Under the pieces are notes generated by a model that made no database searches, had not been told where the DNA came from, and worked only from the letters and a program-made list of their open reading frames with translations. 64,000 bases of DNA from an uncultured Latescibacterota bacterium (GTDB taxonomy: Bacteria; Latescibacterota; UBA2968), in assembly GCA_958295785.1 (NCBI GenBank), contig OY282377.1:4714896-4778895 (forward strand), in the 5' to 3' direction. Positions 38,345 to 55,018 of this stretch are shown piece by piece; positions within the stretch are counted from its first letter, which is position 1, and the number at the start of each line of letters is the position of its first letter. Position numbers and translations under genes: made by a program.

Positions 38345-39190
38345 TCAGGGCAAGATATCTGCGGTCAACCGGTCTGGTTGCGCTGGGTTGCAGGCCCACA
38401 GCGTTTTGGGATCGCACAGCCGGGGTGCTTGGGGCGGATGGTCGGGCAATGTCCAGTTCGGATTGTACTGCTGGATTAGAGCGGTGGCATTTTGATGGGC
38501 AATTCGATCTTTCAAATCGTCGTCGCAGTCGGCTTTTTCAATGACCCGCTGGAGAAAGCGATAGTCGTAATACGGCAAATCCGCGCCGAAGATCAGCCGG
38601 TCCCGTCCGACTTTATTGGCAAACCATTTGAAATCCCATGTGGAACCCCGTCCATCCGGATACTGAACGACCTCGAACCAGAGGTTGTCGTGTTGCGCCA
38701 GATTCTCAGCCGCCCAGGTGCTGGCGTGTACAATAAACTGTGCATGGGGAAACATCTGCGCGGTGCGGTGCATCAGTTTGTCGTGCCAGTGCAAATTGCA
38801 CAGTCCGTTTCGCGCGGCGGCAACTTCTATCATCGGAAGCACTTCTTCCTTCATCGGTGGATGCCCGACCAGGCCGACCAGTTCCAGATCGTCCATTGCC
38901 TTTTCCGCTTCATCGATCCCGCGTTCCCCAAAGCGCGGCTCGATCAGGGCCATGCCAATGGGAAACACGTTTGGAAAAGTTTTGCACGCCCGTGCAATGG
39001 CTTCGTTCTGTTCTCGAATATCTCGAATCCCCCGCGCAATTGGACTGCCCACGGCAGTTGGCATTGAAATGGCCGCGTAAATATCGGTCTCGGCGAACCG
39101 GGACAAACACATTTGTACATTTTGCCCCACGGCGGGCACGCGGTCAATGGTTCGTCCGATGTGGTTGTGACAACATATATACGGGATCAT
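38345..39190 (-). CDS. Amidohydrolase 2 family (TIM-barrel metal hydrolase/decarboxylase)
   Basis: 281 residues. CCHNHIGRTID at residue 6 has the H-x-H metal pair, NLHWHDKLMH near 140 and FIVHAST near 156 add histidines, and RLIFGADLPYYDYRF near 207 has the catalytic Asp. This is the amidohydrolase-related (ACMSD-like) pattern: hydrolysis or decarboxylation of small organic acids in the cytosol. GAAAGGAGTGTC precedes ATG 39190. It stands alone, convergent with the defence operon. Confidence 0.85.
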   Translation of the reverse strand: MIPYICCHNHIGRTIDRVPAVGQNVQMCLSRFAETDIYAAISMPTAVGSPIARGIRDIREQNEAIARACKTFPNVFPIGMALIEPRFGERGIDEAEKAMDDLELVGLVGHPPMKEEVLPMIEVAAARNGLCNLHWHDKLMHRTAQMFPHAQFIVHASTWAAENLAQHDNLWFEVVQYPDGRGSTWDFKWFANKVGRDRLIFGADLPYYDYRFLQRVIEKADCDDDLKDRIAHQNATALIQQYNPNWTLPDHPPQAPRLCDPKTLWACNPAQPDRLTADILP

Positions 39191-41299: not shown

Positions 41300-42442
41300 T
41301 TAATCCTCCCACTGCAAGGTGCCGGCACTTTGATAATCCGTCACGCGCGTCTCAAAGAAGTTCTTTTCCTTTGCCATGTCAATGGTTTCGCTCATCCACG
41401 GAAAGGGATTTTTTGATCCGTATACCGCTTGCAGCCCGATCCGTTCCAACCGGCGGTCGGCAATAAATTGCACGTATTCGCGGAACAGCCCTTCATTGAG
41501 ACCCAACACCCCGTCGGGCAAACAATCCCTCGCATAAAGCACTTCGTATTCCACGGCTTCCTGGATCAGGTCGTAGATGTCTTGTTGCAAATCCGGTGTC
41601 CAAATTTCTGGGTTCTCCAGTTTAATGGTGTTGATCAAGTCAATCCCAAAATTCAGGTGAATGGTCTCGTCGCGCAAAATGTACTGGAACTGCTCCCCGA
41701 TGCCCGTCATTCGGTTTTGCCGATGGAAGGAGAGGATCATCACAAAGCCACTGTAAAAGAAAATGCCTTCCATAATCACGTAAAAACCCACCAAATTTTT
41801 CACAAATTTTTTCATGCCCTCCGCGCTTTGCGTTGAAAAATTGGGTGCCAACACATCTTCGGTCAGTGCCATGACGAATTTGTCTTTGCCTTCAATGGAC
41901 GCCACTTCGTGATACATATTAAATACTTCGCGCCCGTCGAGGCCCAGGGATTCGACAATGTAGTGAAAGGTGTGCGTGTGAATGGCCTCTTCAAAAGCCT
42001 GACGCAACAAATATTGCCGCGCTTCCGAGTTTGTGATGTGCTTAAAAATCGCCAACACAATGTTGTTGCCGACCAAGCTCTCGCCCGTGCTGAAGAATCC
42101 CAGATTGCGCAAAATCACCTGCCGCTCGGCCTCATTGAGTCCATGGGGGTTTTTCCAGAGTTCAATGTCGCGTTGCATCGGCACTTCCGTGGGCATCCAG
42201 TGATTGGCGCATCCATTCAGGTAGTGCTCCCATGCCCACTCGTATTTCAGGGGCATCAGTTGGTTCACATCCACTTGCCGGCAATTGAGCAAACGCTTGT
42301 CCTCTGGATCGATGCGCTTGCCCAAATTGTATGACTCGCCATTGGCCCCGCAACACAGGGCGGACGAAATCTCATTCGCGGACGAATGGTCGTTGCCGTT
42401 GTGTTGCACATGATTCTCAACGTCTTCAAATACCAGCGGCAT
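41300..42442 (-). CDS. nrdB: Class I ribonucleotide reductase, small subunit, probable class Ic (Mn/Fe)
   Basis: 380 residues from ATG 42442, with AAAGGAG 6 nt upstream. It is the ferritin-like radical subunit that works with NrdA to make deoxyribonucleotides. [12 protein letters not shown] near 118 gives Glu where class Ia has Asp84; [14 protein letters not shown] near 148 has the E-x-x-H ligands and Phe at the place of the radical Tyr122; [14 protein letters not shown] near 263 supplies the last E-x-x-H. Glu plus Phe at these sites is the mark of class Ic enzymes such as that of Chlamydia, which use a Mn(IV)/Fe(III) centre instead of a tyrosyl radical. The first 436 bp (42029-42464, including the leader) are duplicated at 44765-45200. 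nrdA lies 9.5 kb upstream. Confidence 0.93.
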
Positions 42443-42464
42443 AAACAACTCCTTTCAGATCAAA
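42029..42464 (-). repeat. D2 repeat, copy in functional nrdB (leader plus first ~138 codons)
   Basis: 436 bp nearly identical to 44765-45200. I saw two base changes in the portions compared (for example GCGCAAAA against GCGTAAAA). It runs from GTTTGTGATGTG to TTTCAGATCAAA, just past the ribosome site. Confidence 0.93.
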
Positions 42465-42477
42465 TCAAACGCATGGG

Positions 42478-43089
42478 TCAGGCCGTTGCCTCAATGATGG
42501 CTTCGCGGAATTTTACAAAGCTATGCGAACGGTTGCGACTGGGATCGACATGCGTGCCAACAACACGGGCCGCTTCCACTTTGCGTAGCCCTGTTTTGAA
42601 ATAGCCGTGCCGCTTTAGGATGCGTTCGAAAGTTTCCCATGTACCGCCGCGAACCGCATCGGGATTGCGTGCTTGATTTGGGATCTTTTGAGACACTCTC
42701 GGATAGGCACTGCGTACTGCCTGCCAGTCGCCGAAGTACCATGCCTCCAATTCCTCAATAACGACGCGGTTGACCAATTGCCAAGGACGACAGAGAGACT
42801 GCGAACGGGTGAGTAGCCCGGCAACGGAAGCAATGGCCTCGAGGTTCTGTTTCAGAGAGAAGCAGTTCTCTCCATCGCGGTCAATGAGCACGATGATGCG
42901 ACATTCGTCAGTTATCCACCGTGCATAAGCACGCAACCGGCCCTCCAAGTTATGGAGGAGGGCGTGCTTACCTTGGAAGGTATGGATGCTGAATGTGCGG
43001 TCCTTTGGCAACAAGCGTGGAAGCACCGCTTGTAGAAAAGCCTCCATCGATTCCTCCTCGACCAGTATTTCCAAGTGATACGCGGTCAT
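42478..43089 (-). CDS. TOPRIM-like DUF4276 family protein, partner of AAA ATPase 1
   Basis: 203 residues. [22 protein letters not shown] at the start (the Glu of the TOPRIM fold), [13 protein letters not shown] near 64 (D-x-D) and [13 protein letters not shown] near 110 are the DUF4276 pattern. Its ATG overlaps the ATPase stop by 4 nt. ATPase plus TOPRIM pairs include PARIS, OLD/Gabija-like and RloAB systems, where the TOPRIM protein is a nuclease effector. It lies directly upstream of nrdB. Confidence 0.72.
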
Positions 43090-44330
43090 CGCTCGCGCCC
43101 CTCAAATGACCGGGATGGCCCACCGTGTTTGACCAGCGGATCGCCCACACGAAATTGTCCCTCCATCCACAGATAGCCGAGAGACGCGCCCTCGTCCACA
43201 AATTCCGGTACGCCGGGTATATCTGCGACACGGCTCGTTTGCGTGTGTCCCGCCTCGTCGCGCCAGAGGACGCGCACCTCTTCGGACCGCAGTGCATTAA
43301 GAAAAAAAGGGGAATGCGTGGTCGCCAACAACTGCGCGCGCTCGCAGGCCGCCCGGCACTCCTCGGCCAATTCTGGGAGTAGCCGAGGATGCAGGAAATT
43401 CTCCGGTTCCTCAATGCCGATGAAGGACGGAGGTTCGGGATCGTACAGTAGGGTTAAATAGGCGAGCATTTTCAACGTGCCATCCGAGGCAAATCGCGCC
43501 AGCACCGGATTGTCGAATGGCGCGTCCTTTATTTGCAACAGCAGCCGGCCGCCGGGCATGATTTCGGCCAACACGCGCTCGACACGCGGCACCCGTTGAC
43601 GCAGTGCCTCAAAGATGTGGTTAAGCCGGTCGGGATATTGCTCGGTCAAGTGTTGGATCACGTTGGCGAGGTTGTCCCCCGTCATATTTAGCCGCTCGTG
43701 AGGTCCTACCTCGGGTTGCCCTCGTGTGCTGTCTGCCGAAAGGTACGACACATGCCATCCTGTGATGAAGTCGCGCAATGCTGCCACGCGCGGGTGATCG
43801 GCAAACTGTCCAAGTGCATTGACTGCCAATAGGTCGGGTGATTTGAGCGGCACCTCAATGCGCGTGTCCAACTCGTCGGGTTGCTCACCGCTGACCGCTC
43901 GACCATGTCCTTCGCGGTATTCGAGGAATCGGAAGGGCTTACCATAACGCTTACGTCGCCAGTGCAACCACTCCGTCCTGACAACGGGCCGGTGCTGAAC
44001 TTCGTCAATGGCAAGGTGATAGGTGATCAAAGGCGTGTCCGGTTGCTCACGGTATTTGAGTTCAATGACAATGGGCCCTGTGCTGCCGCGAGTACGCAGT
44101 TCTTTGGCACGTCCACGTCGATCCCAAGCTCGGCGCAACCCCGATTCGAAGCATTCGGACAGGAACGCGAAGACATCGAACACTGTGGATTTGCCGCTGC
44201 CATTGGGACCAAGGAGCACCGTCATTGGCGTTAGGTGCTTGAACTCAATCTCCATCAAAGCGCGGAAGTTCCGCACCTTCAAGTATTCAATGCGCGCCGA
44301 AGGACGGGGTTGTGAGGTGGGTGAACCCAT
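43086..44330 (-). CDS. AAA15/ABC-type ATPase 1, defence-associated
   Basis: 414 residues from ATG 44330. [34 protein letters not shown] is the N-terminus and Walker A (near 39), [18 protein letters not shown] the signature helix near 280, [13 protein letters not shown] the Walker B near 301, and [10 protein letters not shown] the switch His. This is the RecF/SMC-like ATPase seen in OLD, RloA and PARIS AriA. It probably senses phage factors and licenses the coupled TOPRIM protein. It replaced a different ATPase gene: just upstream (44359-44396) remain the first 13 codons of the other allele ([13 protein letters not shown]), which belong to the duplicated D1 block. Confidence 0.82.
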
Positions 44331-44358
44331 AGCTTTTTCGCTGGACTTTTGGCTTTCA

Positions 44359-44764
44359 GATGCTCTTGAAGCCCTTGATGGTGATGTCGTCAAACATTGG
44401 GAGAATTTGGCTTTTTGTAAATGGTGATTCCGAAGGTGTCTATGTGCTGCTTGAGCGGGATGGACGCGATGTTTTCGTAGGCTTGCAGGTCGCATTTTTG
44501 CGGGATGGGTATGTCCTCTAAGTCGAAGGCGAGCATGCCGAGGCGGTGTTCGTTCGCAATGCCCTTGGTGGCTAAGTCAATGTCCGAATGCGCGGTTGCC
44601 TTGCCCGTGGCGCGAGACCCGAAGAGCTTGACTTCTGCCAATTCGGGATATGCGGCAAAAACCCGGGTGAACTTTTCTATGGTTTCAGCGGGCAATTCAG
44701 GGGCGTTCATGGTGACGGTACCTCGGGTAGCAAGTTCTCGTAGAGCGCGTCCAAAATGTTCAAA
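44359..44764 (-). repeat. D1 repeat, copy 1 (nucleotidyltransferase block)
   Basis: 406 bp nearly identical to 46918-47323. It covers the MNT-type nucleotidyltransferase gene, its short upstream region and the first 13 codons of the AAA2-type gene. A visible difference is Ser against Phe in the KKPN-S/F-PNV tail. Confidence 0.93.
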
Positions 44765-45178
44765 GTTTGTGATGTGCTTAAAAATCGCCAACACAATGTT
44801 GTTGCCGACCAAGCTCTCGCCCGTGCTGAAGAATCCCAGATTGCGTAAAATCACCTGCCGCTCGGCCTCATTGAGTCCATGGGGGTTTTTCCAGAGTTCA
44901 ATGTCGCGCTGCATCGGCACTTCCGTGGGCATCCAGTGATTGGCGCATCCATTCAGGTAGTGCTCCCATGCCCACTCGTATTTCAGGGGCATCAGTTGGT
45001 TCACATCCACTTGCCGGCAATTGAGCAAACGCTTGTCCTCTGGATCGATGCGCTTGCCCAAATTGTATGACTCGCCATTGGCCCCGCAACACAGGGCGGA
45101 CGAAATCTCATTCGCGGACGAATGGTCGTTGCCGTTGTGTTGCACATGATTCTCAACGTCTTCAAATACCAGCGGCAT
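44390..45178 (-). CDS. Chimeric frame: nrdB N-terminus fused in frame to MNT-type nucleotidyltransferase
   Basis: 262 residues from the duplicated nrdB start (ATG 45178, AAAGGAG). Residues 1-138 equal NrdB up to AIFKHITN. The reading then passes at 44765/44764 into [18 protein letters not shown] and the complete nucleotidyltransferase (MNAPELPAE at ATG 44710, residues 1-106 of that protein, with [18 protein letters not shown] as the metal site). Either the fusion or the internal nucleotidyltransferase alone may be made. The NrdB part lacks its E-x-x-H ligands and cannot be an active reductase subunit. MNT enzymes are minimal nucleotidyltransferases, often antitoxins to HEPN proteins or AMPylators. 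Confidence 0.75.
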
Positions 45179-45200
45179 AAACAACTCCTTTCAGATCAAA
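44765..45200 (-). repeat. D2 repeat, truncated nrdB 5' copy
   Basis: 436-bp second copy of the nrdB leader and first ~138 codons, fused at its 3' side to D1. See the copy at 42029-42464. Confidence 0.93.
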
Positions 45201-45221
45201 AAACAGTCAATTCGCTCAACT

Positions 45222-45917
45222 TCATGCGCGTCCTGCCCGTTCCAAACGCGCCAACCAGCTTTGAAAATGCGGACAAGTAGCGCGGATTGTCTCGAGGCCA
45301 ATATCCAGCGCGGCAAGTGTTCCTAGTAGCGGCTTCTGGTATCCCGGTACCAATGTTTCTACGCACTTGGAGGGTGCGGTGTGAGGCGAATCGTCGATCT
45401 CTTCTGGGCTTCCGAATGCGTCGCGGATTTCCTGAAACTCTCGGGCGAGGTCTGGACGACCAATTCCTCGGCTGAATGCCTCACAATCGCTGAAAAGCAT
45501 GGCCTCAAATTCATGCATCATGAGATATGGAACGAATCGGTTGGGATTGAAGGCACTACCCATCTGCTCACAAACATCCGCCAAGAGCGCGTTCTCAACC
45601 GCACTCGCCTTCTCGGGGAATACTAAATTGTTGGCAGTCTTGCGTCCAGGCCAAGCACCAGAACCACTTTGAGGCAGTCCATAGTAGTCCACCATTGTGC
45701 TGACCAGACATCCTTGGTCTTCCCTGAGGTGATTCAAGATGTCCCTTCTCACCGTAGGCCATGGCCGGATTCCACCGCGGCGGTTGCGCTGGCGAGCGTT
45801 TCCTATCAGGCGGGCACTGACCATAGCATAGCCACACCTGTAAAGATGCGGTCCGAGCATCGCATTTACGAAAGTCTCTTCGGTTTCGCCTTCGACGTGG
45901 ATGAGCAGTCTGGTCAT
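45222..45917 (-). CDS. TOPRIM-like DUF4276 family protein, partner of AAA ATPase 2
   Basis: 231 residues from ATG 45917. LLIHVEGETEETFVNAML at the start, CLVSTMVDYYGLP near 75 and YLMMHEFEAMLFSDCEAF near 130 are the DUF4276 hallmarks. A frame open to 45959 overlaps the ATPase end, but ATG 45917, 16 nt after that stop, gives the conventional start. It shares the fold, but little sequence, with the protein at 42478-43089, so the two cassettes are distinct alleles. Probable nuclease effector of an ATPase-gated anti-phage pair. Confidence 0.8.
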   Translation of the reverse strand: MTRLLIHVEGETEETFVNAMLGPHLYRCGYAMVSARLIGNARQRNRRGGIRPWPTVRRDILNHLREDQGCLVSTMVDYYGLPQSGSGAWPGRKTANNLVFPEKASAVENALLADVCEQMGSAFNPNRFVPYLMMHEFEAMLFSDCEAFSRGIGRPDLAREFQEIRDAFGSPEEIDDSPHTAPSKCVETLVPGYQKPLLGTLAALDIGLETIRATCPHFQSWLARLERAGRA

Positions 45918-45933
45918 TTTGCCGATTCTCTGT

Positions 45934-46956
45934 CTAATCCACAGCGGGGCGACCACCAATCTCGTTTTTTTCCCAAAGTTGACCGAGGCTATAGTCTTGC
46001 AACCACATCTTCAGGCGGGCGGTATCAAGCCGCGTCAACTGCGTTTGTCCATCCATCCGTTCAGCCACGAGCACATCTTCAGGTTGGAAATGATCGATCA
46101 GCAAGGATGACTGTGTCGAAAGAATGACTTGGGTCTTAACAGATGCCTGCTTCACAAGCGAGGCCAGCATCGCTATCGCATAAGGATGCAATCCCAGTTC
46201 CGGCTCGTCTAACAAAATAATAGATGGACGGAGCGACTCCGGTTGTAAAAACAAGGTTGCCAATGCCATAAACCGCAAAGAGCCGTCAGAGAGCGATGCC
46301 GCATCAAAGTACGCGTCAGATCCTTGATGACGCCACTCGAGGCGGATTTTGGCTGTGTTCAGTGCCTGTGGCTGAAGAAGAAAATCATCGAAAAATGGCG
46401 CGACCTGTTGTACCGTGCGGCGGATTAGATTGTATGAAGCGTTATGTTTTTTGTGCAAATAGTACAAAAACGCGGGTAGATTAGAACCTTTGGGGCGCAA
46501 ATAGCGGTTGTCGTTCACATCGGCAGTCTTCCGCATCGGCGAGGTGGAACTCGTGTCATGGAAGTGATAAAAGTGCCAACTATCGGCAGGGTCGCAGGCA
46601 GAAAAAGAAAAAAAAGGGGGCCAGAAATGACCAGACTCTGAAAACGGATAGAGCATGTCGGTATCGGTTGCGCGCAACTTGATTTCGTATTGATTGACGA
46701 TGTTGTCAAATGAGAGGCGAACGATCAGGTCCTCAGTTGTCTTAGAACCGAAATGAAGAATTTTTTCAGCTCCGCCAGCGCGGATCACATAGTCCTGCAA
46801 CTTCCCTAAGCGAATGTCACGCAGGAAAGAGAAAATCCCTATGAAGTTTGACTTGCCCGATCCATTTGGGCCGATCAAGATGTTGATTGGGCCGAGTTTC
46901 AAGTTTTCGATAGAACCGATGCTCTTGAAGCCCTTTATGGTGATGTCGTCAAACAT
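45934..46956 (-). CDS. AAA15/ABC-type ATPase 2, defence-associated
   Basis: 340 residues. [42 protein letters not shown] holds the N-terminus and Walker A (near 32), SLSDGSLRFMALATLFL near 222 the signature, SIILLDEPELGLHP near 243 the Walker B, and VILSTQSSLLIDHF the switch region. Its ATG lies 8 nt inside the end of the nucleotidyltransferase gene (ATGTTTGA), so the nucleotidyltransferase, ATPase and TOPRIM genes form one coupled unit. It is shorter than ATPase 1 and clearly different in sequence. Confidence 0.85.
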   Translation of the reverse strand: MFDDITIKGFKSIGSIENLKLGPINILIGPNGSGKSNFIGIFSFLRDIRLGKLQDYVIRAGGAEKILHFGSKTTEDLIVRLSFDNIVNQYEIKLRATDTDMLYPFSESGHFWPPFFSFSACDPADSWHFYHFHDTSSTSPMRKTADVNDNRYLRPKGSNLPAFLYYLHKKHNASYNLIRRTVQQVAPFFDDFLLQPQALNTAKIRLEWRHQGSDAYFDAASLSDGSLRFMALATLFLQPESLRPSIILLDEPELGLHPYAIAMLASLVKQASVKTQVILSTQSSLLIDHFQPEDVLVAERMDGQTQLTRLDTARLKMWLQDYSLGQLWEKNEIGGRPAVD

Positions 46957-47323
46957 TGGGAAAATTTGGCTTTTTGTAAATGGTGATTCCGAAGGTGTCT
47001 ATGTGCTGCTTGAGCGGGATGGACGCGATGTTTTCGTAGGCTTGCAGGTCGCATTTTTGCGGGATGGGTATGTCCTCTAAGTCGAAGGCGAGCATGCCGA
47101 GGCGGTGTTCGTTCGCAATGCCCTTGGTGGCTAAGTCAATGTCCGAATGCGCGGTTGCCTTGCCCGTGGCGCGAGACCCGAAGAGCTTGACTTCTGCCAA
47201 TTCGGGATATGCGGCAAAAACCCGGGTGAACTTTTCTATGGTTTCAGCGGGCAATTCAGGGGCGTTCATGGTGACGGTACCTCGGGTAGCAAGTTCTCGT
47301 AGAGCGCGTCCAAAATGTTCAAA
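46918..47323 (-). repeat. D1 repeat, copy 2
   Basis: 406-bp counterpart of 44359-44764. Beyond 47323 it continues into the HEPN-like remnant, which copy 1 lacks. Confidence 0.93.
46949..47269 (-). CDS. MNT-type nucleotidyltransferase (copy 2)
   Basis: 106 residues from ATG 47269. [24 protein letters not shown] is the G-S-x(10)-D-x-D metal site of minimal nucleotidyltransferases. It overlaps the ATPase 2 start by 8 nt. Its own start overlaps the end of a HEPN-like frame as ATGA, the usual order HEPN then MNT. It is almost identical to the copy at 44390-44710. In HEPN/MNT pairs the MNT protein neutralises the HEPN RNase, often by adding AMP; here the HEPN gene is only a remnant, so the enzyme may now serve the ATPase/TOPRIM pair. 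Confidence 0.8.
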   Translation of the reverse strand: MNAPELPAETIEKFTRVFAAYPELAEVKLFGSRATGKATAHSDIDLATKGIANEHRLGMLAFDLEDIPIPQKCDLQAYENIASIPLKQHIDTFGITIYKKPNFPNV

Positions 47324-47343
47324 TAGCGCGTGTGTATGTTTCT
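47266..47343 (-). pseudogene. C-terminal remnant of a HEPN-like (nucleotidyltransferase substrate-binding) gene
   Basis: Read in the frame whose TGA overlaps the nucleotidyltransferase ATG, the minus strand gives [19 protein letters not shown], like the end of HI0074-type HEPN proteins. Upstream of about 47343 the sequence runs into the end of the HNH gene, so only the tail survives. Confidence 0.5.
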
Positions 47344-47359
47344 GACGACGACGCACAGT

Positions 47360-49030: not shown

Positions 49031-50032
49031 CTAAGCCTCTGCGTCCAACGCATGCTGAAAAGCATCGAGATTGTCCACTTGCACCGCCGCACGAAGCAAC
49101 TGCTTGAGTTGTTGCAAATCGTCAATGGCCCGAATGCGACCGGCGAACTGACCGGGCGCGTCTGCATCAAAGCGAACCTCCAACACATCGAAAATAGCTT
49201 CAATGGTGCTTTCTCTACTCCCGCGCTCCAGACCCTGTTCAATCCCTTGCTCCCTGCCGCGACGCATCCCCTGTTCAATGCCCTGTTCAATGCCCTGTTC
49301 AATGCCCTGTTCAATCCCCTGTTCAATCCCGCGGTCAATACCTTGTTGGGTAAGGTATTGGGCAAACGATGATTCACGCATAATCGCATCCATAAAACCC
49401 TCCTGAGAAATAATACGCCTAACGGTGGACAACTCATACGATATCCCACCTAAAATAGCCATACCCGCCATCATGTCAACCTTGGTTGAAGCGTCCAAGG
49501 GCAAGGCTTCCGTCGCTTGAAGACATTGACGCAACCACGCATCCGCAGACATCCCAGACGGAGGTTTCATCAATGGCGCAAACGGAAGCAAGCCCGGATG
49601 ACCACCCTCGATAATCGCTTGACCGTCGATCTCACTCAGACGAATCACCTTGTATTTCACCAGCACCTCATGGCCGGGCAGTTCTTGGATGTAGTATCCC
49701 TTATCGCGTCGTCCAGCACCGGGACGCAGGTAGATCACAAAGGAAAAGATCGGCAGGCCATAGCGTTCTATGGCGCGACCGATATAGCCGGCCATGCGAT
49801 GCGACATCGGAGTGTCCGTGCTGTCCGCGGTTTGAAATTCGCAATGAATCAACGCATCCTCACCCTCAATACGCACGAGAATCAGGCTATCGGCGCGCCG
49901 GGATTCCACGGTGGGTTGCTCGGTTTCGAGCACCTCGAGCACCTCGATGTCAGCGCGTCCGAGTGTGAAGCGAATGAAATCGTCCGGGTAGGTTTGAATC
50001 AGGTGTTTGGATATCGTATCGTATTCGGCCAT
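49031..50032 (-). CDS. Rpn-family recombination-promoting nuclease/putative transposase (PD-(D/E)XK)
   Basis: 333 residues from ATG 50032 (AAGGTGG upstream); a longer frame to 50239 reads through a dispersed repeat. RRADSLILVRIEGEDALIHCEFQTADS near 54-80 has the D...E-x-Q nuclease core, and MAGYIGRAIERYGLPIFSFVIYLRP follows. Near 225-250 a run of GIEQ repeats (12-bp tandem DNA units, about 49262-49345) forms a charged linker. Rpn proteins are DNA nucleases that raise recombination and influence phage defence. The stop codon lies in the CTAAG flank of a miniature element. The whole gene sits between two such elements. Confidence 0.82.
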   Translation of the reverse strand: MAEYDTISKHLIQTYPDDFIRFTLGRADIEVLEVLETEQPTVESRRADSLILVRIEGEDALIHCEFQTADSTDTPMSHRMAGYIGRAIERYGLPIFSFVIYLRPGAGRRDKGYYIQELPGHEVLVKYKVIRLSEIDGQAIIEGGHPGLLPFAPLMKPPSGMSADAWLRQCLQATEALPLDASTKVDMMAGMAILGGISYELSTVRRIISQEGFMDAIMRESSFAQYLTQQGIDRGIEQGIEQGIEQGIEQGIEQGMRRGREQGIEQGLERGSRESTIEAIFDVLEVRFDADAPGQFAGRIRAIDDLQQLKQLLRAAVQVDNLDAFQHALDAEA

Positions 50033-50353
50033 AAACGCCACCTTGAAAAAATTGAGGAACAAAAATGGGGAACAAAAAAATGATACAATCACGCCATTTT
50101 TGACAAAGATGCGAAAATAAAATGTAGGGGCGGTGCCCCCGTGCCCGCCCGAAAAGGCAAGATACAAGGCGAAAGGCAACCCTAGAGGGACAAACATTGG
50201 GAAGCGCAGGACAGCGAATGGAGCAGACAGAGAGGACATAGCGGAGGCAGGAGGGTGGGGGGTAATCCGCGCAATCCCCTAATCCGCGACAATCCGCGAT
50301 CCAGACAGTGGCGTTGCAGAGCCTGTGCCAAAACGCCGTAAGCCAGTGCTAAG
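50033..50353. other. Gene-free stretch upstream of the Rpn gene
   Basis: It contains a GC-rich dispersed repeat (50124-50169) and, near 50270-50300, two CAATCCGCGA-like short repeats (AATCCGCG three times). No gene is supported. Confidence 0.5.
50124..50169 (+). repeat. Dispersed GC-rich palindromic repeat, copy 4
   Basis: GTAGGGGCGGTGCCCCCGTG, then CCCGCCCGAAAAGGCAAGATACAAGG. It is nearly identical over 45 bp to the copy at 60191-60235. Confidence 0.75.
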
Positions 50354-51086: not shown

Positions 51087-51395
51087 TTACAACCTCACCT
51101 CTCGTTCTTCTTTCTCTATCAGCACCACATGCGTTGCTTTGATATTTCTGCGGAACGACTCTGGCACTTCGTCCCACACAAGTACATCCACCCGAAAAGG
51201 CAGGTTGCTTTCTTCATAAGCTTCGCGCAGGTCTGAAACCTGTCTTTTTTTTTCTGGCGTTGCAAAAACCACCATATCTAAATCGGAGTATGGACGGGCG
51301 GTTCGCTTAACGCGGGAGCCATAGGCCCATGCTGTAATATTCGGCAGATACTTTTTTAGCAAGCCAAGAATGAGGTCGTGCTGGTCGCCGGTCAT
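51087..51395 (-). CDS. MNT-type nucleotidyltransferase (antitoxin of HEPN/MNT pair)
   Basis: 102 residues from ATG 51395, 2 nt after the HEPN stop; a GTG or ATG at 51419 in the same frame is less likely. ITAWAYGSRVKRTARPYSDLDMVVF near 24-48 is the G-S-x(10)-D-x-D metal site. With the upstream substrate-binding gene it forms the standard HEPN/MNT toxin-antitoxin arrangement, where the MNT protein inactivates the HEPN RNase by nucleotide transfer. It differs from the D1-encoded MNT proteins. Confidence 0.82.
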   Translation of the reverse strand: MTGDQHDLILGLLKKYLPNITAWAYGSRVKRTARPYSDLDMVVFATPEKKRQVSDLREAYEESNLPFRVDVLVWDEVPESFRRNIKATHVVLIEKEEREVRL

Positions 51396-51397
51396 AT

Positions 51398-51817
51398 CTA
51401 TGGTAGCGTTCCGTCCCATGTCTCTCTGCTCATGGTCTGATACAGATCGATGGCATCGCGAATAAAATCGCCCATGATCTCCAAAGCTTTTTCGCCGCTG
51501 TAGTCATGCGTGGTATCAATTCGGGCATCGGCATACGTCAGCCATTGTTCAGTTGATGAGGCAAACAACTCATTTTCACCTGCCAATCGGAGAATCGGCT
51601 TGGGGCTATTGGAGACTTCGGGAATACCCAAATCTTCCTGTAGATGGCGTTTCAGTACCTTCCACAGTGTGTCATAGCAGGTTTCAAAACGCTGAATCAC
51701 GGATTCGGCTACGGCTTCTTGTATGAGTTGCGGCCATTCGGGGTTCGGATTTTCGCAGTTGTGATATTGCATCTCGAGATGCGCGAGGGCCTTTTTGAAT
51801 TTTCCGTAATCAATCAT
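51398..51817 (-). CDS. HEPN-like nucleotidyltransferase substrate-binding protein (HI0074 family)
   Basis: 139 residues, four-helix: MIDYGKFKKALAHLEMQYHN, VIQRFETCYDTLWKVLKRHLQEDLGI, WLTYADARIDTTHDYS and FIRDAIDLYQTMS. The order 'R.E...D..WK.LK..L....G' and 'R...TTHDY' is typical of the partner of MNT enzymes. The RNase R-x4-6-H motif of active HEPN proteins is not obvious. Likely toxin or binding partner, co-transcribed with the MNT gene. Confidence 0.8.
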   Translation of the reverse strand: MIDYGKFKKALAHLEMQYHNCENPNPEWPQLIQEAVAESVIQRFETCYDTLWKVLKRHLQEDLGIPEVSNSPKPILRLAGENELFASSTEQWLTYADARIDTTHDYSGEKALEIMGDFIRDAIDLYQTMSRETWDGTLP

Positions 51818-51911: not shown

Positions 51912-54908
51912 TCACTGACACGCTTCACACGCGCCATCTGTAATGTCGCAGGATACGGGGGTTGGCACTTTCGGGGCCGTCCATTCACGGGTTTTGCCGT
52001 GCCAAGACATGGCGTCGGCGGGTGGGTTCTGATGCACAGGGGGCGTCGCGGGGGTTGCGTTTGTCGCGTGGGGTAGAGCTACGTCAGGCATTTCAACAGG
52101 TGCATTGCCGTTTCCCGTGTCGGGATGGATTTCGTCGCGTTGGACTTGCACGTCGCTCGACGCGGATTTGGATTGCATCCATCGGGGTTGCACGCCGCGT
52201 TTGTTGATATCTATGGTCGATTTCTCGATCTGCGTTGCGGCCAATGAGCGCAAATAATACGTGGTCTTCAGCCCGCGCACCCAGGCCAATTTGTACATCT
52301 CGTCCAACGCCTTGCCGCTGGGGGATGCAATGTACAGATTGAGCGATTGCCCCATATCGATCCATTTTTGCCGGCGGCTGGCGCATTCGATGAGCCAGTC
52401 GGGTGCCACTTCAAACGCGGTTTTGTAAAGGGCTTTCAGATCTGCGGGCACGCGGTCGATCTCTTGGAGCGAGCCGTCGAAATACTTGAGGTCATCCACC
52501 ATCTGATCGTCCCACAAGTTGCGCGCTTTCAACTCGCTGACCATATACGGGTTCAACACGGTAAAGTCGCCCGACAAATTGGCTTTCACATACAAATTGC
52601 GATACATCGGCTCGATGGACTGGGTCACGCCCGAGATGTTCGAAATGGTGGCGGTTGGGGCAATCGCCATCACATTGCTGTTCCGCATGCCGTGTGTGGC
52701 GATGGCCTCGCGCACGGGTTGCCAATCCAAGCGGGCGGACATATCGACCTCTGTGTGCGATCCGCGTTCCTCGGCCAACAATTTTAAGGTATCTATCGGC
52801 AACAGCCCGCGGTCCCACTTTGAACCGGGATAGGATTGATAGGTGCCGCGTTCACGGGCCAAGCGCGTGGAGGCCAAAATCGCATAGTACGCGATCATTT
52901 CCATGCTCTCGTCGGCAAAATCGACCGCGCCTTGGGAATCGTAGGGCAAATTCAGCAGGTAGAGCGCGTCTTGAAACCCCATGATGCCCAACCCCACCGG
53001 GCGATGGCGTTTGTTGGAGGTGGCCGCTTCTTTGGTCGGATAAAAATTGATGTCGATCACGTTGTCCAGCATCCGCAAAGCCGTGGAGATGGTGTCTTCC
53101 AACAGCGTGCGATTCAGCCCCTGAGCTGAGACATGCGCCACTAGATTTACGGATCCCAGATTGCACACCGCGGTCTCTTTGCGGCTCGTGTTCAACAAAA
53201 TTTCAGTACACAAATTCGAACTGTGGACAACGCCTGCGTGGTCTTGCGGGGAGCGGATGTTGGACGGGTCCTTAAATGTGATCCACGGATGCCCGGTTTC
53301 AAACAGCATAGACAACATCTTTCGCCACAATTGCACGGCATCGACTTGGCGATATTGTTGCAATTCCCCGGCTTCGGCTTTTTGTTCGTAGGCGGTGTAT
53401 CGGTCTTCAAATGCCTTGCCGTACAAATCGTGCAAGTCGGGGACTTCATCGGGGCTAAACAAGGTCCAGGTTCCCTTTTCCATGACGCGCTTCATGAACA
53501 GGTCGGGGATCCAATTGGCCGTGTTCATATCGTGCGTGCGGCGGCGGTCGTCGCCCGTGTTTTTTCGCAACTCCAGAAAATCCTCGATATCCAAGTGCCA
53601 GGCTTCCAAATACGAGCACACAGCCCCCTTGCGTTTGCCGCCTTGATTGACGGCAACTGCGGTGTCGTTCACCACTTTCAAAAAGGGAATCACGCCCTGG
53701 CTTTTGCCATTTGTGCCGCGAATATAAGAATTGGTCGCGCGCACATTGGTCCAGTCATTGCCCAAGCCGCCGGCCCATTTGGACAATTTGGCATTGTCGG
53801 AGACCATTTTGAAAATGTGTTCCAAATCGTCTTGCGCGGTGGAGAGATAACACGAGGACAACTGCGGATGCAGGGTGCCGGCGTTGAACAGGGTGGGCGT
53901 GGCAGAAACGAATCGGAAGGAAGACAGCACCTCGTAAAACTGAATGGCGCGTGCGTCCCTGTCATCTTCATCCCACGCCAAGCCCATGGCCACGCGCATC
54001 CAGAAAAACTGCGGCGTTTCAATGCGGCGTTCATGGACGTGGAGCAAGTAGCGATCAAAGATGGTTTGCACACCCAAATACGCGAATTGTTCGTCGCGCT
54101 CGGGTTTGAGGGCTGCGGATAGACGTGCGAGATCATAGGCGTGCAGTTCGGGAGCCAACCGGTCGTTTTCAATGCCCGTTTCGATGAATGCGGCAAAGCC
54201 CTGCCGACAGGCTTTGTCTCGGTCTTCAACGGCGGGTTTGAACCCCAGGGCGTGGCGGTAGATCACGTTGAGCAACAAGCGCATCGCAACCTTGCCGTAG
54301 GCGGGTTCTTTTTCCAAGCGACTGCGTGCGGCCAAGATCATGGCGCGTTCGATATCGTCGGGTTTGATGTCGTCGTAGAGCGAGCGGTAGATTTCGTCGA
54401 GCAAGTCTTGGGCGTCCACCTCTTGGAGCCCTTCGCAGACAGAGAAGACTTCGGCGCGAATGCGGCTGGCATCTAAGGGTTCGCGCTTGCCATCGGGCGT
54501 TTGCACGCGCAGTTTGGGGGCATTGGGATCTGCGGGTTCTTCTTTGCCGCTGAGCACGCGGGCTTTTTTGTGGTCTTCTCGATAGACGATGTAGCGTCGG
54601 GCAACCGCAAAATGGCCAGCGCGCATCAACTGGATTTCGACTTTGTCCTGAATGCGCTCGACATCCACGCTGTCGTCTGGCTCGCGCATTTCATCGGCGA
54701 TTTCATCGATGACGGCATCGGTCAGATCCGACACATCGGTTGCCATTTTGGGCGGCAATGCCAGATCGCTGGACAAACCCAACTCGGCTCTGAATGCCGC
54801 CGCGATGGCGCGTTCAATGCGCGTGCGATCAAATTCCACATCTCGACCGTCGCGCTTACGCACTGTAAAATTAACATTCGTTAATACAGCTTCAACAGTT
54901 TCTGCCAC
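51912..54908 (-). CDS. nrdA: Class I ribonucleotide reductase, large catalytic subunit
   Basis: 998 residues from GTG 54908, preceded by GAGGGAGGGATAC; an ATG at 54959 in frame is weaker. Two ATP-cone regulatory domains lie at the N-terminus (residues about 8-105 and 130-225). The barrel carries [17 protein letters not shown] near 350 (redox Cys), [25 protein letters not shown] near 575-600 (the N, C, E catalytic set and second redox Cys), and [17 protein letters not shown] near 760. The tail ends [12 protein letters not shown], the C-x-x-C shuttle reduced by thioredoxin. It reduces NDPs together with NrdB, whose gene lies 9.5 kb downstream on the same strand. Two ATP cones suggest strong allosteric control. 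Confidence 0.94.
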
Positions 54909-55018
54909 GTATCCCTCCCTCGCCAATATGTATGATAGTTTTGCATATTTAATCCACATATTGGTGAGGAGTAGTAACCGGGCGAGTAGTAACGCGGAAA
55001 GTACTGATAAGACATCAT
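54881..55018 (-). CDS. Candidate Tyr-rich leader peptide overlapping the nrdA start
   Basis: 45 residues from ATG 55018, preceded by AAAAGGAGGAGAAAC, the best ribosome site of the region. [20 protein letters not shown] and on, with 9 Tyr. It ends 28 nt inside nrdA in another frame. It could couple translation to nrdA or act as a regulatory leader. No relatives are known to me, so it may also be a chance frame. Confidence 0.4.

Follow-up and report, generated by a model that had tools for sequence, protein, structure and literature searches.

The gap between nrdA and nrdB in this uncultured Latescibacterota bacterium carries two different ATPase-DUF4276 modules of the PADLOC HEC-01 type, U (genes A_U and T_U) and P (A_P and T_P), in tandem between almost identical direct repeats. 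The array is probably the product of a single non-homologous join, which placed two alleles of one species, one with only U and one with only P, head to tail. On the minus strand of the window (the whole stretch of 64,000 nucleotides analysed), the order is MNT, A_U, T_U, partial nrdB, MNT, A_P, T_P and full nrdB, within a gap of ~9.5 kb that runs from the end of nrdA to full nrdB (Table 1). How immunity genes are swapped at integrase-free sites is unsettled, and recombination through flanking core genes has been proposed (PMC5635113, PMC10250203). The array is a possible snapshot of such shuffling between conserved neighbours: an apparent two-allele tandem with a readable junction, beside intact, scarred and empty alleles, makes the steps of tandem gain and subsequent loss by repeat recombination testable.

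Table 1. Features of the nrdA-nrdB gap and its borders, in reading order on the minus strand
Feature	Position in window	Strand	Evidence
nrdA, left border of variable gap	51912..54959	-	Pfam Ribonuc_red_lgC/lgN, ATP-cone
D1 first copy: complete MNT gene and 13 codons of A_U	46918..47323	-	404/406 identical to 44359-44764
MNT (106 aa, minimal nucleotidyltransferase), overlaps A_U start	46949..47269	-	Polbeta PF18765 2.6e-13 on longer frame 46949-47356
A_U, ATPase of module U, 340 aa	45934..46956	-	AAA_21; HEC-01A PDLC04175 7.8e-130
T_U, DUF4276 partner of module U, 231 aa	45222..45917	-	PF14103 8.5e-47; HEC-01B PDLC04188 5.7e-71; both on longer frame 45222-45959
D2 extra copy: nrdB leader and first 138 codons	44765..45200	-	434/436 identical to 42029-42464
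Fusion ORF nrdB(1-138)-MNT, in frame, 262 aa from ATG	44390..45178	-	Pfam Ribonuc_red_sm and Polbeta in one frame
D2/D1 non-homologous junction	44764..44765	.	1-nt microhomology between both native sequences
D1 second copy: MNT and 13-codon A_U stub (deletion scar)	44359..44764	-	Sequence alignment
A_P, ATPase of module P, 414 aa	43086..44330	-	AAA_21; HEC-01A PDLC04182 9.2e-158; both on longer frame 43086-44495; start by alignment to relatives
T_P, DUF4276 partner of module P, 203 aa	42478..43089	-	PF14103 1.8e-29; HEC-01B PDLC04202 2.1e-81
D2 native copy: leader and first 138 codons of full nrdB	42029..42464	-	Sequence alignment
Full nrdB, right border of gap	41300..42442	-	Ribonuc_red_sm 1.3e-89; 88-90% protein identity in 10 same-genus relatives

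The two copies of D1 (406 bp) and the two of D2 (436 bp) align ungapped with two differences in each pair, and ungapped 400-bp copies at >99% identity need no chance expectation. Direct repeats flank two different contents of one region, which is the arrangement of a tandem partial diploid. The initial annotation had described these near-identical repeats of equal length, cargos of 1717 and 1894 bp and the minus-strand order, all of which were recovered. It had placed the array within nrdB, however, and the actual place is the nrdA-nrdB gap: full nrdB is open, and truncation is confined to the extra copy. The 13 ATPase codons that it had noted in D1 are indeed part of the upstream ATPase; ahead of the second one they are no more than a stub running into TGA.

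The junction (44765|44764) falls exactly after codon 138 of nrdB and leaves MNT in frame, but one join in three would do so by chance, and the frame of the nrdB-MNT fusion is therefore no evidence of function. Each D1 copy contains the own ATG of MNT (47269 and 44710), so that both MNT copies can be complete. An extra N-terminal piece of nrdB was found in one of 15 genomes with an nrdB match (60 genomes searched). Three of the four differences between repeat copies can be polarised; all three are synonymous, with derived bases in both units. At the D2 sites 42173 and 42110 all ten relatives have G, so that each copy, the full and the truncated nrdB, has one derived change, and in D1 the derived base lies at 46936 in the upstream copy (reference: the A_U starts of loci L020 and L024). 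The fourth difference (46962/44403, F/S in MNT) is unpolarised.

The same junction bears on whether the tandem is an artefact, in which the assembler or a chimaeric read brought two strain alleles together. The nearest relatives are metagenome assemblies, the window genome may be one too, and strain mixtures occur. Alleles with common D1 and D2 would be expected to form a bubble and not a tandem, however; a tandem would need an edge from D2 to D1, and since the microhomology there is about 1 nt, joining of separate alleles by overlap is unlikely. The window genome is moreover one contig of 5,660,449 bases, and we consider an artefact improbable.

All 10 other available genomes of the genus, one per species, were examined for the contents of the gap; the loci L019-L025 come from metagenome assemblies, of which one carries the label Gemmatimonadota and the other six Latescibacterota or Latescibacteria. 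Among the ten relatives, one has U only, four have P with or without scars of U, and five have neither. With the window included, intact U or P is present in 6 of 11 genomes and neither in 5, the same core flanks enclosing variable content as in a hotspot. The U-only genome G005 (L020) reads A_U-T_U-nrdB and has a GIY-YIG gene in the gap. In three P carriers A_P-T_P-nrdB is preceded by remains of U: an A_U fragment and a T_U stub in G004, the last A_U codons and a T_U stub in G006, and in G008 an A_U/T_U scar, an intact A_U, a T_U stub and about 330 bp, with a SocA/Panacea gene also in the gap. In the fourth, G009, the last bases of nrdA at the contig edge are followed by about 20 bp and A_P-T_P-nrdB. 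As for genomes with neither module, nrdA and nrdB are about 30 bp apart in G002; G001 has a PIN protein and a Mutator-family transposase; G003 has a HigB-like gene (below cut-off), an HTH-M78 gene, an MBL-like gene (PADLOC only) and an E2/JAB gene with a weak ThiF match; and G007 and G010 have other genes or remnants.

The scars give an order to these contents. Remains of A_U or T_U lie just upstream of A_P in four places (L019, L023, L024 and the window, the relatives being G004, G006 and G008), so that U and P were once neighbours on one chromosome in the order U-P-nrdB. Among these scars is the stub of 13 codons in the second D1; it is no part of A_P, whose alignment with its orthologues starts at 44330. 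L019 and L020 also have short pieces of the TIR/deoxyribosyltransferase-like gene of the window, upstream of A_U or of its scar. The initial annotation had expected relatives with other contents at the site and a strain able to hold two modules at once; the former were found, and the window is the one genome with both U and P. Its view of the cargos as interchangeable fillings of one slot was not supported, because the scars in G004, G006, G008 and the window place U upstream of P. The scar in G008 has an internal deletion join in common with that of G004, and an intact A_U then follows; to judge by this sequence, G008 may be a second composite genome with two U remnants of different history in tandem, or its two A_U copies could stem from a duplication followed by decay of one copy.

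The gap of the window holds further genes. Directly after nrdA stands a gene pair (51087-51817, minus strand) of a PF08780 nucleotidyltransferase-substrate-binding gene (NTase_sub_bind), which we take to be HEPN-like, and an MNT gene, likely a toxin-antitoxin pair. An ORF at 49031-50239 (minus strand), which we presume to be Rpn-like and which lacks a Pfam match, contains 12-bp repeats; the gaps of L024, L099, L100 and L101 hold ORFs related to it, or remnants. The TIR/deoxyribosyltransferase-like gene is below the Pfam cut-off and matches a PADLOC TIR effector at 6.5e-12, and an HNH gene is barely above its cut-off. The best reading of these contents is that the nrdA-nrdB gap is a turnover site for defence and toxin-antitoxin genes in this genus.

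A wider survey kept 80 of 167 nrdB loci, with nrdA upstream in 72; 10 of these 72 gaps exceed 1 kb, four of them in the window genus. We rejected a general nrdA-nrdB defence site across phyla, as the six gaps >1 kb outside the genus, and L030, had no obvious defence gene when their ORFs were read by eye. Three of the six, in L038, L049 and L063 (Limisphaerales, bacterium, Verrucomicrobiales), have a metE-like ORF, again by eye, between nrdA and nrdB. Within the family, the gap measures 110-454 bp in L026, L027 and L037, which represent three of the four other genera (G013 left out). At L037 (10972-11288) an insertion interrupts nrdB of G011 in frame: the two matching pieces, residues about 30-354 and 346-381, lie in one open frame and are separated by about 315 bp.

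On this background, the gap once held both modules side by side in the order U-P-nrdB, with MNT probably preceding them, and deletions would have given rise to U-only, P-only and empty alleles. An MNT-U-nrdB allele and an MNT-stub-P-nrdB allele of the same species, about 0.5% diverged, would then have been joined head to tail through a single join between nrdB codon 138 and a site that precedes the MNT start by 54 bp. The outcome would be that one full nrdB was kept and both modules were gained, with a truncated nrdB fused in frame to MNT. The likely route would be uptake of P-allele DNA, homologous recombination at the nrdB side and an illegitimate join at the other end; alternatively, P-allele DNA may have been circularised and integrated by one crossover. 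PMC3240628 and PMC3784515 offer precedent for these routes. ComEC is present, as is a DprA match with one TAG in frame (L106, G000:C1:3367798-3368412); these are common genes and say little. The nrdB leader is kept in both units, as would be expected if each allele had once stood before a functional nrdB. Single-module alleles are seen only in other species, and those of the window species are postulated. A crossover between the copies of either repeat (D1 or D2) would be expected to reduce the array to one module, P or U, and the locus should accordingly behave as a heteroallelic partial diploid.

The mechanism first proposed, tandem duplication of one D1-cargo-D2 unit in one strain followed by replacement of one cargo through homologous recombination with another allele, would lead to an identical arrangement. 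The genus does contain alternative alleles, the 5' part of nrdB looks recombined (see below), and the two A_U copies of G008, one decayed, may be an old duplication. This sequence of events nevertheless takes two steps where one illegitimate join suffices, and none of the 10 relatives has two nrdB 5' copies or a repeated D1-cargo-D2 unit; we regard it as unlikely, although four copy differences are too few for sequence alone to separate it from a single join. It is more doubtful still that an ancestral MNT-U-P-nrdB(1-138) block was duplicated in tandem and then lost P from its first copy and U from its second. U and P were indeed once neighbours, and none of the four relatives with P retains an undamaged U next to it, but three events would be needed, the first copy retains the nrdB leader despite its truncated nrdB, and a U-only allele with T_U adjoining nrdB is already present in G005.

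We compared the divergence of the modules with that of the core genes around them. Identities between the window and its relatives are 80% for A_U, 80% for T_U, 79-80% for A_P and 72-73% for T_P, against 83-85% for nrdA (DNA, 9 relatives), 83-85% for later nrdB, 80-82% for the gene at 38345-39190 and 74-77% for a core gene that we take to be genX. With divergence so close to that of neighbouring core genes, U and P are either old at the gap or exchanged among close relatives only. The D2 part of nrdB has 34 polymorphic to 46 fixed sites and is poorer in polymorphic sites relative to fixed ones than the rest of nrdB (115 to 59, p=5.7e-4) and than nrdA, genX and gene 38345-39190 together (924 to 458, p=1.7e-5), whereas the rest of nrdB does not differ from these three genes (p=0.86). 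This sign of homogenisation is supportive only, because the sites are linked, nrdA is without L025 and gene 38345-39190 without L021, and a sliding scan was inspected beforehand; an earlier cut at column 480, picked after that scan, gave p=6.0e-5, and the D2 boundary was used instead. At the 3' end of nrdA, the last 480 columns hold 72 polymorphic and 38 fixed sites and show no excess homogenisation. Statistical support for recombination is modest on the nrdB side and absent on the nrdA side.

A further sign of recombination among relatives comes from the block pattern between L019 and L023. The two differ by 0-2% in the blocks from 43314 to 42571 (the end of A_P and most of T_P) and by 4.7% in the next block; in nrdB they differ by 1.3-2.7% from 42334 to 41885 and by 3-8% later. 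The 17% difference in the block at 42427, where the variable start of the nrdB coding sequence lies, argues against a single continuous tract. Flank trees disagree as well: L020 (U only) pairs with L023 (P) on nrdA (97% support) and on the concatenation (76%), and with L019 on nrdB (67%), while genX and gene 38345-39190 place L020 elsewhere. Module content follows none of the trees cleanly, and with such disagreement gains and losses are not firmly placeable.

The MNT gene of the array has a match at E<=0.001 in one of 11 genomes, the window's own. Remnants directly before nrdB in L021 and L100 score 39.4 and 50.4 bits, where the best of 300 first-order random sequences per locus reached 25.3 and 30.0, and L101 aligns to MNT likewise, yet gave no match in the scan. 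MNT is by this evidence an old resident of the gap, its decayed copies standing directly before nrdB in two relatives, perhaps three. The overlap of its stop with the A_U start suggests coupling to module U, although A_U occurs without intact MNT in G005 and G008. We rejected MNT and nrdB as dedicated arms of a site-specific cassette system, since MNT as a left arm is absent from the other module carriers. The initial annotation had made both genes exchange arms; this has modest support for the 5' part of nrdB, with its excess homogenisation, and none for MNT, which is found in one of 11 genomes and whose decayed copies occur only in relatives with neither module. As a description of the mechanism, a join between two pre-existing alleles at a long-standing turnover site is preferable to a dedicated cassette-exchange system.

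HEC-01 models are the best PADLOC matches for all four module genes, with adjacent HEC-01A and HEC-01B in U as in P. DUF4276 is presumably a TOPRIM domain. By sequence, the nearest solved chains are SMC, ABC, OLD-family and GajA ATPases for A_U, and PtuA, OLD-family, retron Ec78 ATPase and Rad50 for A_P, all as short or partial matches; T_U has no PDB sequence match at E<=1. By analogy with such systems, U and P would sense phage and then act as nucleases or cause abortive infection. No integrase was recognised in either module, and the U, P and MNT proteins gave no tblastn match at 1e-5 in L026-L098. The whole window genome is rich in ATPases of this kind, with 35 matches to A_U at E<=0.001 (some genes give two).

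Beyond the single join, we tentatively put forward the idea that the gap is a recurrent exchange site, at which incoming defence alleles would be captured in tandem beside the resident, both carried and later segregated by repeat recombination; two of the six module carriers (the window and G008) would be in, or show traces of, such a composite stage.

Literature searches by title and abstract start (HEC-01/PADLOC, defence island exchange, homology-facilitated illegitimate recombination, Latescibacter defence, nrdA-nrdB hotspot, merodiploid) gave no paper on this locus and no HEC-01 among the matches listed; a search for DUF4276 found no paper, and the words HEC and TOPRIM are absent from PMC8565338. 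The locus does resemble several known systems. Like the candidate HEC-01 defence modules of PADLOC-DB, U and P pair an AAA_21 ATPase with a DUF4276 partner, but here two modules with different best models stand in tandem. With the chromosomal hotspots of PMC5635113 the gap shares a variable gene content flanked by fixed core genes, modules (U and P) without a recognised integrase and a recombination signal in one flanking core gene; it differs in lying inside the nrdAB operon of an uncultured lineage and in a tandem that looks like two alleles caught together. The core defence hotspots of Pseudomonas aeruginosa (PMC10250203) likewise hold immune modules between conserved flanks without one mobilising element, whereas the nrdA-nrdB site is a small gap with few modules in 11 genomes only. 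Homology-facilitated illegitimate recombination, or circularisation with a single crossover (PMC3240628), would either way give the observed structure; those were laboratory events, whereas ours is deduced from a genome. The merodiploids made by transformation in Streptococcus pneumoniae (PMC3784515) are also tandem partial diploids with two alleles of a region, but span about 100 to 900 kb and form via long repeats, while the array measures about 2.7 kb and has a 1-nt microhomology junction.
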